The notes under the pieces: generated by a model
Told to the model about the DNA's origin: nothing
Databases searched by the model: none
Seen by the model: the letters and a program-made list of their open reading frames with translations, nothing else
Part shown: piece after piece, positions 10,061 to 56,350 of the stretch
How positions within the stretch are numbered: the stretch's first letter is position 1
Layout of the letters: each line of letters starts with the position of its first letter
Translations under genes and position numbers: made by a program
Source: Megascapheus bottae
Lineage: Eukaryota; Chordata; Mammalia; Rodentia; Geomyidae
DNA: 64,000 bases
Reading direction: 5' to 3'
Assembly: GCA_024803745.1 (NCBI GenBank)
Contig: JANJXV010000014.1
Location: 415,001 to 479,000, forward strand

Positions 10061-10290
10061 AGCTGGGAAGTGGTAGCTCATGCCTGTAATTCTAGCTACT
10101 CAGAAATCAAAGATTTGGGGTTTATGGATCAAAGCCTTCCCAGACACGAAAGCCTATGAGATTGTAATTTCCAATTAACCACCAAAACCACTGGAAGCAG
10201 AGCTGTGGCTCAAATGGTAGAGTGCTAGCCTAGTACAAAAAAGGCTCAGAGATTGGGCTCAGGCTCAGAGTTCAAGCTCCAGGACTGTAG
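10061..10290 (+). mobile_element. 7SL-like/Geo-like dimeric SINE
   Basis: Head AGCTGGGAAGTGGTAGCTCA..CCTGTAATTCTAGCTACT, middle TTCCAATTAACCACCA, Geo half AGCTGTGGCTCAAATGGTAG to CAGAGTTCAAGCTCCAGGAC. The tail leads into a CA microsatellite. Confidence 0.87.
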
Positions 10291-10482: not shown

Positions 10483-10711
10483 TGGCTGGGGTTTTCTTTA
10501 TGACAATGCTAGAACTTGAACTCAAGGCCTGGGTGCTGTCCCCAAGTTTCTTTTGCTCATGGCTGAGACTCTACCACTTCCAGCTTTTTGTTAGTTAACA
10601 GGAGATAAGAGTCTCAAAGACTTTCTTGCCTGGCTGGTTTAGAATCCCACATCCTCAAATCTCAGCTTCCCAAGTAGTTAGGTTAACAAGCTTAAGCCAC
10701 TGCACCCAGCC
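10483..10711 (-). mobile_element. 7SL-like/Geo-like dimeric SINE
   Basis: Plus strand shows the Geo half first (GAACTTGAACTCAAGGCCTG, GACTCTACCACTTCCAGC), then GGAGATAAGAGTCTCAAAGA, then the 7SL-like head reversed (CTCAAATCTCAGCTTCCCAA, AAGCCACTGCACCCAGCC). Essentially full length. Confidence 0.87.
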
Positions 10712-21004: not shown

Positions 21005-21173
21005 GAAGAACATTTTTTTTTTGGCCAGGCTAGAACTCTGCCACTTGAGCCACAGCATCATTTCTGGTTTTTTCTTCTGTATATATGGTACTTGGAAATT
21101 GAACCCGGGTCTTCATGCATGTTAGGCAAGCACTCTACCACTAAGCCAAACCCCAAGCTCCCATAGAAGAACA
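21005..21173 (-). mobile_element. IDL-Geo SINE with deleted Geo end
   Basis: The minus strand has an intact IDL head (plus-strand reverse ATTGAACCCGGGTCTTCATG, GGCAAGCACTCTACCACTAA) and only the start of Geo. The last ~60 bp of Geo are missing before the poly(T) at 21013-21022. Short direct repeats GAAGAACA at 21005-21012 and 21166-21173 suggest the deletion predates insertion. Confidence 0.85.
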
Positions 21174-21581: not shown

Positions 21582-21816
21582 AAAATCAAGCATGGGGATG
21601 GCCAGGAGTTTGGCCTAGTGGTTAAAGTGCTTGCCTGGCATGCACGAAGACCCGGGTTCAATTCCTCGGTACCACATACATAGCAAAAAGCCGGAAGTGG
21701 TGCTGAGACTCAAGTGGTAGAGCTCTAGCCTTGAGAAAGTCCAAGGACAGGACTCAGGCCCTGAGCTCAAGCCCAGGACTGGCCAAAAAAAAAAAATCAA
21801 AAAATCAAGCATGGGG
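21582..21816 (+). mobile_element. IDL-Geo SINE with perfect 16-bp TSD
   Basis: Body 21598-21800. The identical AAAATCAAGCATGGGG occurs at 21582-21597 and 21801-21816. The IDL half carries the GGTTAAAGTGC variant in place of GGTAGAGTGC, a variant shared with the head of the VNTR composite at 42.2 kb. Confidence 0.95.
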
Positions 21817-22012
21817 GCTGGGAGTTTGGCCTAGTGGTAGAGTGCTTGTCTAGCATGCACAAAAACACAGGTTTGATTCTTTGGTACCACATAAATAGAA
21901 AAGGCTGAAAGTGGTGCTGTGGCTCAAATGGTATAGCTCTAACCTTGAGAAAGCCCAAGGATAGTGCTCAGGCCCTGAGTACAAGCCCCATGAGTGGCAA
22001 AAAAAAATCAAG
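21817..22012 (+). mobile_element. Second IDL-Geo SINE at the same site
   Basis: Begins GCTGGGAGTTTGGCCTAGTG immediately after the right-hand duplication of the first copy and ends CATGAGTGGCAAAAAAAAA. AAAATCAAG recurs at 22004-22012. The same target was therefore hit twice, giving SINE-TSD-SINE-TSD in tandem. Confidence 0.92.
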
Positions 22013-28775: not shown

Positions 28776-29005
28776 AGCCTAGTGCTGGTGGCTCATGCCT
28801 GTAACCTAGATATTCAGGGGCTGAGATCTGAGGATTATGGTTCAAAGCTGGCCTGAGCACAGAAGTCCGTGAGACTCCTATCTACAATTAACTGCCAGAA
28901 TACCGGACTTGGCATTATGGCTCCAGGAGTAGGGTGGTAGTCTTAAGCTGAAGAGCTCAGAAACAGCGGCCAGGCCTATAGGTCAAGTCCCACAATTGAC
29001 AAAAC
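28776..29005 (+). mobile_element. 7SL-like/Geo-like dimeric SINE
   Basis: Head GTGCTGGTGGCTCATGCCTG, CAGGGGCTGAGATCTGAGGA, then CTACAATTAACTGCCAGAAT and a Geo-like end GCTGAAGAGCTCAG .. CCCACAATTGACAAAACA. Full length. Confidence 0.87.
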
Positions 29006-29238: not shown

Positions 29239-29372
29239 TGGGTCGGGAGTTTGGCCTAGTGGTAGAGTGCTTGCCTAGCATGGCACAAAGACCCAAGTTC
29301 GATTCCTCAGTACCACATACATAGAAAAAAGCCGGAAGTAGCGCTGAAGCTCAAGTGGTAGAGCTCTAGCCA
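29239..29372 (+). mobile_element. IDL-Geo SINE, 3' end of Geo missing
   Basis: Complete IDL half (B box AGTTCGATTCC) and the first third of Geo up to GGTAGAGCTCTAGCC, then non-SINE ATATAGATAATGC. No A-tail, so the end was deleted after insertion or replaced. Confidence 0.88.
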
Positions 29373-30366
29373 TATAGATAATGCTAAGGAAATAAACTCC
29401 AAGATATGGAAACAAGAGGGTTTGTTTTGTTTTAATGTACTATATGAAGTTGTTTCTTTTTTACATTTTCTCCATTACTTTTGTTTTATGAAAAAATACC
29501 TTCACATTACATTATTTCTTCTTTTTGTTAATAACTTTGTCCTGTGGGAAGATATCACCTTTTCTATGATTTCATCTTTTTTTCAGGTCAGTGGTTTATT
29601 AGAATTATCTATTCAAATACAATTAACTTATAATTTCTCTAAGGGAAAGGCAAGCATATATACAAAACAGAATAATGGATCTCATTTTAATTTATATCTT
29701 AAGTTGTAGTCATTTTATTTTAATAATTTACATTTGTTCACCTCTAAGTAAATTTAGCCTTTTTTCTTCAACAGCTAAGGGAGAGCAAATTAGTCTTTGT
29801 CTAATCACACATGGCCATTGCTTCTCATTTTACTTCCAAACAATTTTACCCCAAACTACAGAAACACTCATAGGATATCTAAAACTTAGCCTCAAGTTAT
29901 TCAAATTTTAAGACAACTAGTATCGTTTGCAACTGTAATAATATGCCAACATCATTATGACTGGCTGCTGAGTGGATTCAGTACTTTGTGTGGACAAGGG
30001 TTATAGGAAGGGTGGTCTCTGTGTGCGTTAATGCATTAGACCTTGTCACAAGCCCCAGTCTAGTAACAGTCATATTTATTTGTAAGTGAGAAAACTGAGA
30101 CACAAAGGAGTTCCTAACAAGCCGGAGTTCTGGCCAGAGACGGACTACACAAGTAATCGAAGGAACGGAGTGTTTACAGAGGGATATGCATAGTTAAGAA
30201 AAACCACAGGGAAGCAACTCCATGGCCAAGAACGCACAAAATATAATCAGTAGCAAAGAAGAAAATACTAAACATTGCAAATTAAAACTATGAAAAAATA
30301 AGTTTTGAAAAGAGTTTAGTCCCATTCTTTACTTTGGAATTTACTATATATACATGTATATATGTG

Positions 30367-38835: not shown

Positions 38836-40635
38836 AAAACCAGTTTTATACCTTATTCACATCTCTCTGATATTTGAATCTCAAGGTCCCATGACAGTGC
38901 TTTTGTTATTATTATCATTGCCATCCAAGGTGCTTCAATCTAAGAATCATATCTCTTTTTCTTTTAAAGATATCTGTTCAGTCTTCCATCCTGACAGCCT
39001 ATATTTAAGAGTATCCTGTAAGTAGCAATAGCAAGAAGAAAGTAGGCCCTGCACTAAGTCAGCTTACCTTCTTATATTCAACCAATAGCATGGAATGTTG
39101 CTAGGGAATGTTAGCTATTTCTCTCAAAATAGCTAACAAAATACATATGTTCTTTACCAACTAGAAATTATAAGTGTATTCTGTTTCTCTAGACTCTTAT
39201 ATAAAACAAAGTGGATGTTCTTAGGCAACTGAGATCAGTACCCAAGATCATTTTAAATTAATTTGTGCTGTTTCAGTGACCTCTTTATCTCAGGTTTCTG
39301 AGATTGATTTGAGTTTACTTACTCCCCTCCTCATACCTGACAATTGACTTTTCGTAAAATTTCTATTATAACCTAAAAGGAATGTTTTAAACTTTTGGAT
39401 ATACATTTCTAAATTATATTGTTAACTATTTACTAAAGATTCATTTCTATCTTTTGGAAACAAAAGATAAATTCTAGTCAAATGAGTCCTAACAGATTAA
39501 ACAGTCTTGAGCTTGGACTTTGCTTGAAAATTTTTAGCTATGACATTCAGATATTTTTATTGTGTGAGATAAGTAGCAACCTAAGTCAGACTTTTTACAA
39601 CTTTATTGCAGATATATTTTATTAAAAATAATTCATTTTCCTTGAAAGTGTGACTGTAATAGCATCACAGCACCACTTAATGAGAAATACACAGGCAATT
39701 CATTTTAATATTTCCTTAATAGTTGATATTAAACAGCAAGAAACACAAAGGGTTGATTTTCTCATGCTCAAGTGTCCTTGAATCAATGAAAACTAGAGGG
39801 AAGCTGAAACAACAGATTCCCAGAGGCCTAGCTATAGTGAAAATTTAAACTGATTACCCATCCTTCAACTCTATATTCAGTGAAGGATAGAGTTTGCCTT
39901 TTTTTTCTTTGGGGTAGAAAATGTTTTTAAAGAAGTAATATTTCCCTCTGAAATACAGTTTTCTTTTTCAATAGTAAGAAGGTAGAGGACACAGGGAAGA
40001 AAAAATATTAAAGAAAGCCCAGATTAGTTCCAGATTTTCTAACATTTTTCCAAATCAAATCTCACCAGAGAACATGAAAAATCCAGCCCAGAATTAGGAT
40101 TATTCTTCAGACTTCAGTTGATTGTGCTCAGCATAAATAAGAAAAATTGTTCATGCTCACATAAGAATATTTCTTATGCACATTTGCAATACAAAAAATT
40201 CTCTAAGTTTGGCTCTGTCTATGATTATTGCAAAAGTCAGGAGGTCATCTGGATCTGTCATCCCCCTTCACCATGCTTCCTCTCCCAACCAGACAAGAAT
40301 TTCCTCTTGGAGCCCACCATTCTTTCTCTCCCCAAGGCTGCCTTGAAAACAAACCAAATGAAGTTGTGCTTTGAGACTGTCAGGCTAGATACTTAATATC
40401 AATGTTTCCACTAAAAGCAAACTGAAATATGCAGGATGAAATATTGTTAAATAGCTTAAACAAAAAAAAAGTTAAAGAACTAACAAGAGAGTGATGTCTA
40501 ACTAGGTCAAGATCTGAAGGAGAGAGAACACAGAGAGGGAGGGCTAGTTTTGCCTGGTAGTAGTTGTCATTTAAAAGGGGCAGTTGTGTAAGAGTTCCTA
40601 CAAATCAGTAGAAAGACGAATAAAACATTACAAAA
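38836..40635. other. Unique AT-rich DNA
   Basis: No recognised gene or repeat. A 92-codon frame at 40118-40396 has no motif. Confidence 0.45.
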
Positions 40636-41515: not shown

Positions 41516-41705
41516 GCCTTTTAAAACAGAAAATCCACCGGTAGAAAGATCAATGGAATAAGGAAAACAAGTTTATATAAATCATAAGTCTAAACATTAT
41601 TTATACATAAAATATAATTAAGGCTTATTATAGTCTTTTTTCCTTCTCAGCATTATTTTTTTTTTTTTTTTTTTTTTTTTTTGGCCCCCTTCTCTCTCTC
41701 TTTCT

Positions 41706-42075
41706 GGCCCCGCTCGCTCCGGCCCCGCTCGCTCCGACCCCGCTCGCTCCGGCCCCGCTCGCTCCGACCCCGCTCGCTCCGGCCCCGCTCGCTCCGGCCC
41801 CGCTCGCTCCGGCCCCGCTCGCTCCGGTCAGGCTCGGTCCCTCACGCTCCTGGCCCCGCTCGCTCCGGCCCCGCTCGCTCCGGCCCCGCTCGCTCCGGCC
41901 CCGCTCGCTCCGGTCCCGCTCGCTCCGGCCCCGCTCGCTCCGGTCCCGCTCGCTCCGGCCCCGCTCGCTCCGGCCCCCTCTCGCTCTGGCCCCGCTCGCT
42001 CCAGCCTCGCTGGCTCTGGCTCGGCTCGCTCCCGCACGCTCCGGCCCTGCTCGCTCGGCCCCGCTCGCTCCGGCC
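41706..42075 (-). repeat. 15-bp GC-rich VNTR (GGAGCGAGCGGGGCC)n
   Basis: About two dozen units on the minus strand. Eight in-phase units at 41706-41825 (plus-strand GGCCCCGCTCGCTCC, two with GACCCC), a degenerate break (41826-41851), eight more at 41852-41971 (two with GGTCCC), then increasingly degenerate units to about 42075. The outer units near the IDL head are the most diverged. Very CpG-rich in an AT-rich region. Each sense unit carries GGGGCC. Because 15 is a multiple of 3, frames stay open on both strands (frames of 100-177 codons, Arg/Ser/Pro/Gly/Ala repeats). I do not regard these as genes. Confidence 0.97.
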
Positions 42076-42130
42076 TCCACTCGGTTGGGCTCCGCTTGCT
42101 CGCCTTCCACTCTCTGTCGCTTGTTGCTGT

Positions 42131-42192
42131 CTCCTCTCTGTCACTTCCGGCTTGGTTGTGTCTCGTCTCTGCCACTTCCGGCTTGGTTGTGT
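42131..42192 (-). repeat. 31-bp tandem duplication next to IDL head
   Basis: Plus-strand copies at 42131-42161 and 42162-42192, both ending CACTTCCGGCTTGGTTGTGT and differing at a couple of positions. It forms a distinct module between the tRNA-like head and the VNTR. Confidence 0.92.
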
Positions 42193-42273
42193 ATGTGGGT
42201 TACCGAGGAATTGAACCCGGGTCCTTGTGCATGCTAGGCAAGCACTTTAACCGCTAGGCCAAACTCCCGGGCC
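42191..42273 (-). mobile_element. IDL (tRNA-like) head of the composite
   Basis: Minus strand GGGCCCGGGAGTTTGGCCTA, A box TGGCCTAGCGG, GTTAAAGTGCTTGCC, B box GGTTCAATTCC, ending CCTCGGTAACCCACATAC. It shares the GTTAAAGTGC variant with the IDL-Geo copy at 21.6 kb, which suggests a common IDL subfamily. Confidence 0.92.
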
Positions 42274-42287
42274 CTCAGCATTATTTT

Positions 42288-42534: not shown

Positions 42535-42766
42535 AAAAGTAGTATTTGTGGCCACGAGTTTACCCTAGTGGTAAGAGTGCTTGGTTAGCATGCATGAAGA
42601 CCCCAGTTCAATTCCTCAGTACCACATACATAGAAAAAAGCCAGAAGTGGTGCTGAGGCTCAAGTGGTAGAGCTCTAGCCTTGAGAAAGTCCAAGGACAG
42701 TGCTCATGCCCTGAGCTCAAGCCCAGGACTGGCTAAAAAAATGAATAAATAAAAGTAGTATTTGTG
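42535..42766 (+). mobile_element. IDL-Geo SINE with perfect 16-bp TSD
   Basis: Full dimer with A-box variant TACCCTAGTGG. AAAAGTAGTATTTGTG repeats exactly at 42535-42550 and 42751-42766. The tail is an A-run plus (AATA)n. Confidence 0.95.
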
Positions 42767-44522: not shown

Positions 44523-44741
44523 AAAAAGTTGAAATTATGGGTTGGGAGTTTGGCCTATTGTAGACTGCTTGCCTAGCATGCACGAAGACCTGGATTCAAT
44601 TCCTCAGCACCACATACATAGAAAAAGCCAGAAATGGTGCTGTGACTCAAGTGGTAGAGCTTTAGCTTTGAGAAAGTCCAAGGATAGCACTCAGGCCCTG
44701 AGTTCAAGCCCCAAGATTGGCCAAAAAAAAAGTTGAAATTA
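44523..44741 (+). mobile_element. IDL-Geo SINE with perfect 15-bp TSD
   Basis: Head GGGTTGGGAGTTTGGCCTAT with a small deletion in the A-box region (CTATTGTAGAC). AAAAAGTTGAAATTA repeats exactly at 44523-44537 and 44727-44741. Also inside the retrocopy's 3' segment. Confidence 0.95.
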
Positions 44742-48213: not shown

Positions 48214-48333
48214 AGATAGACAGGAGAGGTACATGAATAAACTTATGAATAAACAGATGAATAAAACCACCCTAGATAGACAGGAAAGGTACAGGAATAA
48301 ACTTATGAATAAACCTACAAATAAATCCACCCT
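48214..48333. repeat. 60-bp tandem duplication
   Basis: Two copies, 48214-48273 and 48274-48333, both starting AGATAGACAGGA and ending CACCCT, with a few substitutions. Each contains internal GAATAAAC repeats. Confidence 0.9.
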
Positions 48334-56212: not shown

Positions 56213-56350
56213 AAACAATATTCCATTGAAGTAGCTCTGTGGCTCAGTAGTAGAGCACTAGCCTTCAGCTAATGAGCTTAAAGCCCAAGCCCAGAGTTCA
56301 AGCCCTACAACTGACAAATAAAATGAAATAAAATAAAAAACAATATTCCA
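56213..56350 (+). mobile_element. Solo Geo-like monomer with 13-bp TSD
   Basis: Body GTAGCTCTGTGGCTCAGTAG .. GAGTTCAAGCCCTACAACTG and an AATAAAAT-type tail, with no left monomer. AAACAATATTCCA repeats at 56213-56225 and 56338-56350. Its sequence is closer to the Geo half of the 7SL-like dimers (AGCTAATGAGCTTAAAG, CTACAACTGACAAA) than to IDL-Geo. Confidence 0.85.

Follow-up and report, generated by a model that had tools for sequence, protein, structure and literature searches.

Is the composite insertion on the minus strand at 41646-42287 of the 64-kb stretch of DNA analyzed here (hereafter, the window) a rodent counterpart of the primate SVA and LAVA elements, and, if it is not, from what was it put together? 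All of its parts were recovered where an earlier note had placed them, and that note's reading of an SVA-like composite stands for the layout, in which head, internal array, poly(A), and duplication are arranged much as in SVA and LAVA. For the composition it needs refining: rather than an independent IDL head to which modules of other origin were added, the element derives from the dimeric IDL-Geo SINE, with the Geo monomer lost after the linker. We put the probability at about two in three (0.66) that a non-autonomous SINE variant of this parentage was inserted here, recently by the look of it. Positions given as el N are counted along the minus strand of the element from the first duplication base, such that the window position equals 42288 - N.

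The exact 14-bp direct repeat said to enclose the element was found at both of its ends. Specifically, CTCAGCATTATTTT occurs at 41646-41659 (the 3' copy) and at 42274-42287 (the 5' copy, reading AAAATAATGCTGAG on the element strand), with 14/14 identity; in a loose test of 200,000 trials, matches of at least 14 between random position pairs of the window arose at a frequency of 2.5e-5. The first base of the head directly adjoins the end of the duplication; the cDNA thus extended to where SINE copies normally begin, which is what an RNA start at that base would lead one to expect. Ordinary IDL copies behave in the same way in 7 of 18 cases (21602, 15176, 43262, 44544, 42556, 62244, and 11617), with clear duplications of 14-17 bp ending at most 2 bases from the same point. 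A script scan gave no such duplication at the expected point for 10 of the other 11 copies; the copy at 21154 has 8 matching bases that end 5 bases short of that point, and the start point of the copy at 21801 was misplaced in the scan. The bases preceding the duplication of the element are CTATAG, and these speak against canonical L1 cleavage at this site. Among the seven clear neighbors, TT|AA is found directly in four and within one base in two, and CT|AA is found at 44544.

Inside the 5' duplication lies the IDL head (el 15-95; 42193-42273, minus strand), delimited by BLAST, Rfam, and a motif scan. Its earlier description as tRNA-like and of the Pol III type holds up: BLAST returned 18 other matches in the 64-kb window at E <= 0.01, a count from which more diverged copies may be missing; A-box-like (TGGCCTAGCGG, 42251-42261) and B-box-like (GGTTCAATTC, 42208-42217) motifs lie within the head on the same strand; and Rfam scores it as a tRNA at 20.5 bits, a weak match below the gathering score of 29. 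ARAGORN called no tRNA, and the head is not the best-kept tRNA-like sequence in the window, as the copy at 21085-21155 reaches 28.7 bits versus 20.5. Scans of the element for TTTT, AATAAA, and ATTAAA found none of them, the longest T run being at most three, and the nearest TTTT begins 44 nt beyond the A-run. By these motif and T-run scans, the element has what is expected of a SINE, namely, motifs of a Pol III promoter inside it and, ahead of the A-tail, no terminator. Elsewhere in the window, a tRNA-like match at 56233-56299 (24.1 bits against a gathering score of 29, hence sub-threshold) falls outside the 18 IDL copies and is possibly another tRNA-derived SINE, and weak 7SL-like matches at 10600-10710, 28784-28869, and 10062-10139, all far under the gathering score, might fit B1-type SINEs.

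The resemblance to the other IDL copies does not stop with the head. In 13 of the 18, the BLAST alignment runs to el 114-117, and in 5 it stops at el 79-100; since the longer alignments pass beyond the head, the sequence AAGCCGGAAGTGG reached by them can be recognized as IDL-Geo linker, this SINE being a dimer. This core is matched at 8-13 of its 13 bases in the 18 copies, and the copy at 21602 has a core identical to that of the element together with the GGTTAAAG head variant, as seen in an alignment that took in 13 of the 18. A SINE of Geomyoidea named IDL-Geo was reportedly described by Gogolevsky and Kramerov in 2006, and we take that name, the relation to tRNA, and the restriction to Geomyoidea to apply to the SINE seen here; the assignment of the host to Geomyoidea follows from this SINE and its taxonomic range. 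Beyond the linker, the element departs from its relatives. The right Geo monomer was not found in it, whereas the start of that monomer is present in 18/18 other copies. A probe for the Geo 5' end matched 18-25 of 25 bases in all of these copies versus 14 of 25 in the element, and the Geo 3' end matched at least 9 of 12 bases in 16 of 18 (the copies at 29244 and 21154 being the exceptions) and 7 in the element, both as counts without a shuffle control. In the element, SINE homology ends after about el 116, and sense Geo similarity in five stretches after that point showed no excess over shuffles. The idea that Geo is hidden in the modules, linker, array, or tail found no support, with 9 of 10 comparisons (five stretches, both Geo strands) giving P 0.36-1.0; the tenth, of the array with antisense Geo, gave P 0.027 and was taken as chance. 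The element and the IDL-Geo SINE have in common the IDL head, the linker core, an A-tail, and duplications alike in length and position; they differ in that the element lacks Geo after the linker and has instead 31-bp modules, a purine-rich linker, and a GC-rich 15-bp array.

The 31-bp tandem pair had been regarded as separate from the head. The pair is present, as module 1 (el 96-126; 42162-42192) and module 2 (el 127-157; 42131-42161; 29/31 identity to module 1), but it is not separate, as its start is the IDL-Geo linker, with which module 1 aligns down to 42172, core included. A purine-rich linker follows, up to el 186 (42102-42130), in which no Geo similarity was found, and then two degenerate array units (42072-42101) and the main 15-bp array, comprising parsed units 3-27 with the consensus GGAGCGAGCGGGGCC (41706-42071). 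The GC-rich internal array of about two dozen units described earlier was borne out by TRF, which reported a period of 15 and 26.9 copies at 41706-42101. Parsing from 42101 down to 41698 gave 28 segments, the last an 8-base piece beyond the TRF array; 20 were ungapped 15-mers, 14 of them exactly GGAGCGAGCGGGGCC. Irregular units cluster in the 5' part (1, 2, 4-7, and 9) and recur at 18 and 19, and units 11, 13, 23, and 25 carry a single change each. At two or fewer mismatches, the unit occurs 20 times in the window, always within the element, versus 0 in 100 shuffles. The array gives way to a 23-bp GA-rich tail with GGGGGCC at its end (41683-41705) and then to an A-run (41656-41682). The claimed 27-nt poly(A) is right as to the length of this run; its final four A's (41656-41659) coincide with the duplication, and the tail proper therefore measures 23-27 nt. 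All of these parts lie on the minus strand.

Set beside the primate composites, the element works like SVA and LAVA in layout, without their defining modules, and is hence not a member of either. SVA carries a poly(A) tail, and the element likewise has poly(A) and a target-site duplication (an A-run of 27 and an exact 14 bp, respectively). It is a composite, it is non-autonomous, and it combines a target-site duplication with a GC-rich tandem array in its interior, features also found in SVA, LAVA, PVA, and FVA as PMC4432496 describes them. The same paper gives VNTR composites CT hexamers and an Alu-like region, repeat units of 30-50 bp, and 3' domains from HERV-K (SINE-R), L1ME/Alu, PTGR2, or FRAM, and describes them as specific to hominoids, with the ancestor SVA2 also in macaque. 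In contrast, the duplication of our element adjoins the IDL head where SVA and LAVA have their 5' CT hexamers and Alu-like region (a comparison of structure, not of aligned SVA sequence), its GC-rich unit is 15 bp long, and in place of a family-specific 3' domain it has only the 23-bp GA-rich tail between array and poly(A). A second likeness is to the SINE-derived satellites of squamates, in which, as described in sections of PMC10702118, a tandem array lies beside SINE sequence; there, the units are SINE sequence, whereas the 15-bp unit is not clearly SINE-derived and lies with the poly(A) inside one insertion. In the same sections, the authors had not met such satellites in mammals, for which they had not specifically checked. 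They also mention internal duplications of about 30 nt in SINEs, with references that by title concern rodent B1 and related SINEs; the duplicated piece here differs in spanning a SINE/non-SINE junction and leading into a long array.

Whether such an element is new is a separate matter. It could be a copy of a family already in Dfam, Repbase, or a paper, which we think doubtful and which, as a question of novelty and not of mechanism, is compatible with the other readings of how the element arose. In its favor, geomyoid assemblies have probably already been through repeat annotation. Against it, no published family of matching structure appeared among the matches listed in the open-access literature, and the authors of PMC4432496, writing in 2015, knew of no non-LTR retrotransposons other than VNTR composites that contain complex tandem repeats internally. 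BLAST found one copy of the composite in the 64-kb window, and no relatives were found in collections of viral contigs, (prokaryotic) genome contigs, phages, and plasmids, a result that says little about rodents.

How old, then, is the insertion, and was it assembled before it landed? The array is 81% GC, and of the 60 CpG sites in its 20 full units, 54 are intact, 4 have become TG or CA, and 2 something else. The window has a CpG observed/expected ratio of 0.15, yet the element, which makes up 1% of it, holds 75 of its 342 CpGs. The identical 14/14 duplication, the pure A-run, and the 54/60 intact CpG sites point to youth or to recent homogenization. Homogenization can make arrays look young, which leaves some room, if not much, for in situ minisatellite growth, in which a short, Geo-less, IDL-derived SINE with one or a few GC-rich units was inserted and its array expanded later. 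The identity of 14 of the 20 ungapped units makes recent homogenization likely, and DNA-level remodeling is also seen in SVA arrays, according to part of PMC4432496. Such growth would nevertheless still need a Geo-less source SINE with the linker, the modules, and a GC-rich seed, in a window where 18/18 other copies start Geo. The presence of diverged units (4-7, 9, 18, and 19) beside a 14/14 duplication also speaks against it, although this counterpoint is weak, because mutation is faster in minisatellites and at CpGs than in ordinary sequence.

The order of assembly can be read in part from the modules. Both consist of SINE linker followed by the same non-SINE bases, so that the 31-bp duplication spans the SINE/non-SINE junction and the fusion must have preceded the duplication. 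This order, together with the intact target-site duplications, favors the insertion of an already assembled RNA. It also bears on the least likely alternative, a one-off chimera in which the L1 reverse transcriptase, while copying a polyadenylated, GC-rich transcript, changed templates to IDL-Geo RNA in a single insertion: chimeric L1 insertions with other RNAs are known (from part of PMC13174262) and SINE homology does end after about el 116, but the 31-bp duplication holds both sides of the junction and would have had to arise at this site after the fusion, and neither AATAAA nor ATTAAA stands ahead of the poly(A).

Under our preferred reading, descent of the element from the IDL-Geo SINE, we propose the following route. 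In an ancestral IDL-Geo copy, Geo would have been replaced after the linker by purine-rich and then GC-rich sequence, the 31-bp piece across that junction would have been duplicated, and the 15-bp GC-rich unit would have expanded into an array of about 26. Transcription, probably by Pol III, would most likely start where the IDL head begins, driven by the internal A and B boxes. As the element lacks AATAAA and ATTAAA and its T runs do not exceed three bases, a Pol III transcript could read through the array, and it would end at a T run in the flank. L1, acting in trans, would next carry out target-primed reverse transcription, primed through the encoded A-tail. Such mobilization by L1 is probable, and the hallmarks of L1 trans-mobilization fit, with the exception of the CTATAG before the duplication. 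Read-through of this kind corresponds to the T- mode of Alu, for which PMC9599045 gives a terminator within <40 bp for efficient mobilization; the TTTT of the element, at 44 nt, lies slightly outside that distance. Since assembly took several steps and the insertion looks young, it is easiest to suppose that the assembled RNA came from another locus. We infer assembly before insertion, Pol III transcription, L1 dependence, and a source locus, and we predict that the same genome has one or more source loci sharing this junction; further growth of the array at the site after insertion is possible.

A broader proposition, which we hold only tentatively and at somewhat less than even odds, is that geomyoid rodents have a young SINE family with a Pol III-type head, which lost one monomer, gained a GC-rich VNTR independently of primates, and is copied by L1; this would be a second origin of VNTR composites and the first with a tRNA-like promoter. 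If so, the general question of whether GC-rich arrays aid L1 mobilization could be put to a rodent case of independent origin, in which the promoter is another one and the parent SINE is known and can be compared. Such a case would also introduce CpG-dense islands into AT-rich surroundings, as the share of CpGs given above illustrates.

Several further properties of the array were considered. Derivation of the 15-bp unit from the two 31-bp modules together is unsupported (P 0.29-0.40), as is its similarity to el 164-186 (P 0.54-0.88); borderline values came from the 23-bp 3' tail (P 0.08-0.09) and from module 1 when only its non-SINE tail was compared (P 0.06-0.07). A resemblance to the unit is seen in el 164-216 (P 0.004-0.006), a stretch that takes in the two degenerate units, and likewise in el 96-216, of which that stretch is a part (P 0.014-0.028); the resemblance of el 164-216 means that the array reaches into the linker. 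A 191-bp higher-order block had the highest gapped BLAST identity (87.1%) but an ungapped identity of only 0.64, and was rejected; ungapped identity is raised at offsets 131-161 (0.72-0.755, versus 0.63 at offset 60), which only hints at block structure. Unusual RNA stability was ruled out by shuffle folding, as 71 of 100 shuffles of the RNA without poly(A) folded at least as well (z 0.68). A scan of the element for strict G-quadruplexes (loops up to 7) found none, and loops up to 13 gave 25 overlapping G-quadruplex-like matches. The array is open in several reading frames, as is easily expected of a GC-rich 15-bp repeat, and a coding function was rejected: when residues 150-207 of one frame were used in a protein search, 14 candidates came up, none at E <= 10. 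A host-gene scan (20/60 stop-to-stop ORFs of at least 90 aa) gave one sub-threshold Pfam match, at 40043-40393 (16.6 bits versus 27), for which a PDB sequence search listed nothing but chalcone synthases, with E values no better than 0.29; it was taken as chance.

Other repeats of the window deserve mention in their own right. A 60-bp unit is present in two tandem copies with 88% matches at 48214-48333. About 260 bp from the element, an ordinary IDL-Geo copy with its own 17-bp duplication lies on the opposite strand (42549-42760), and the copy at 29244-29400 is cut short within Geo, no A-tail being seen beyond that point. At 21582-22007, two IDL-Geo SINEs form a tandem pair; a 16-bp duplication, AAAATCAAGCATGGGG, belongs to the first of them, and its second copy stands directly before the second SINE.
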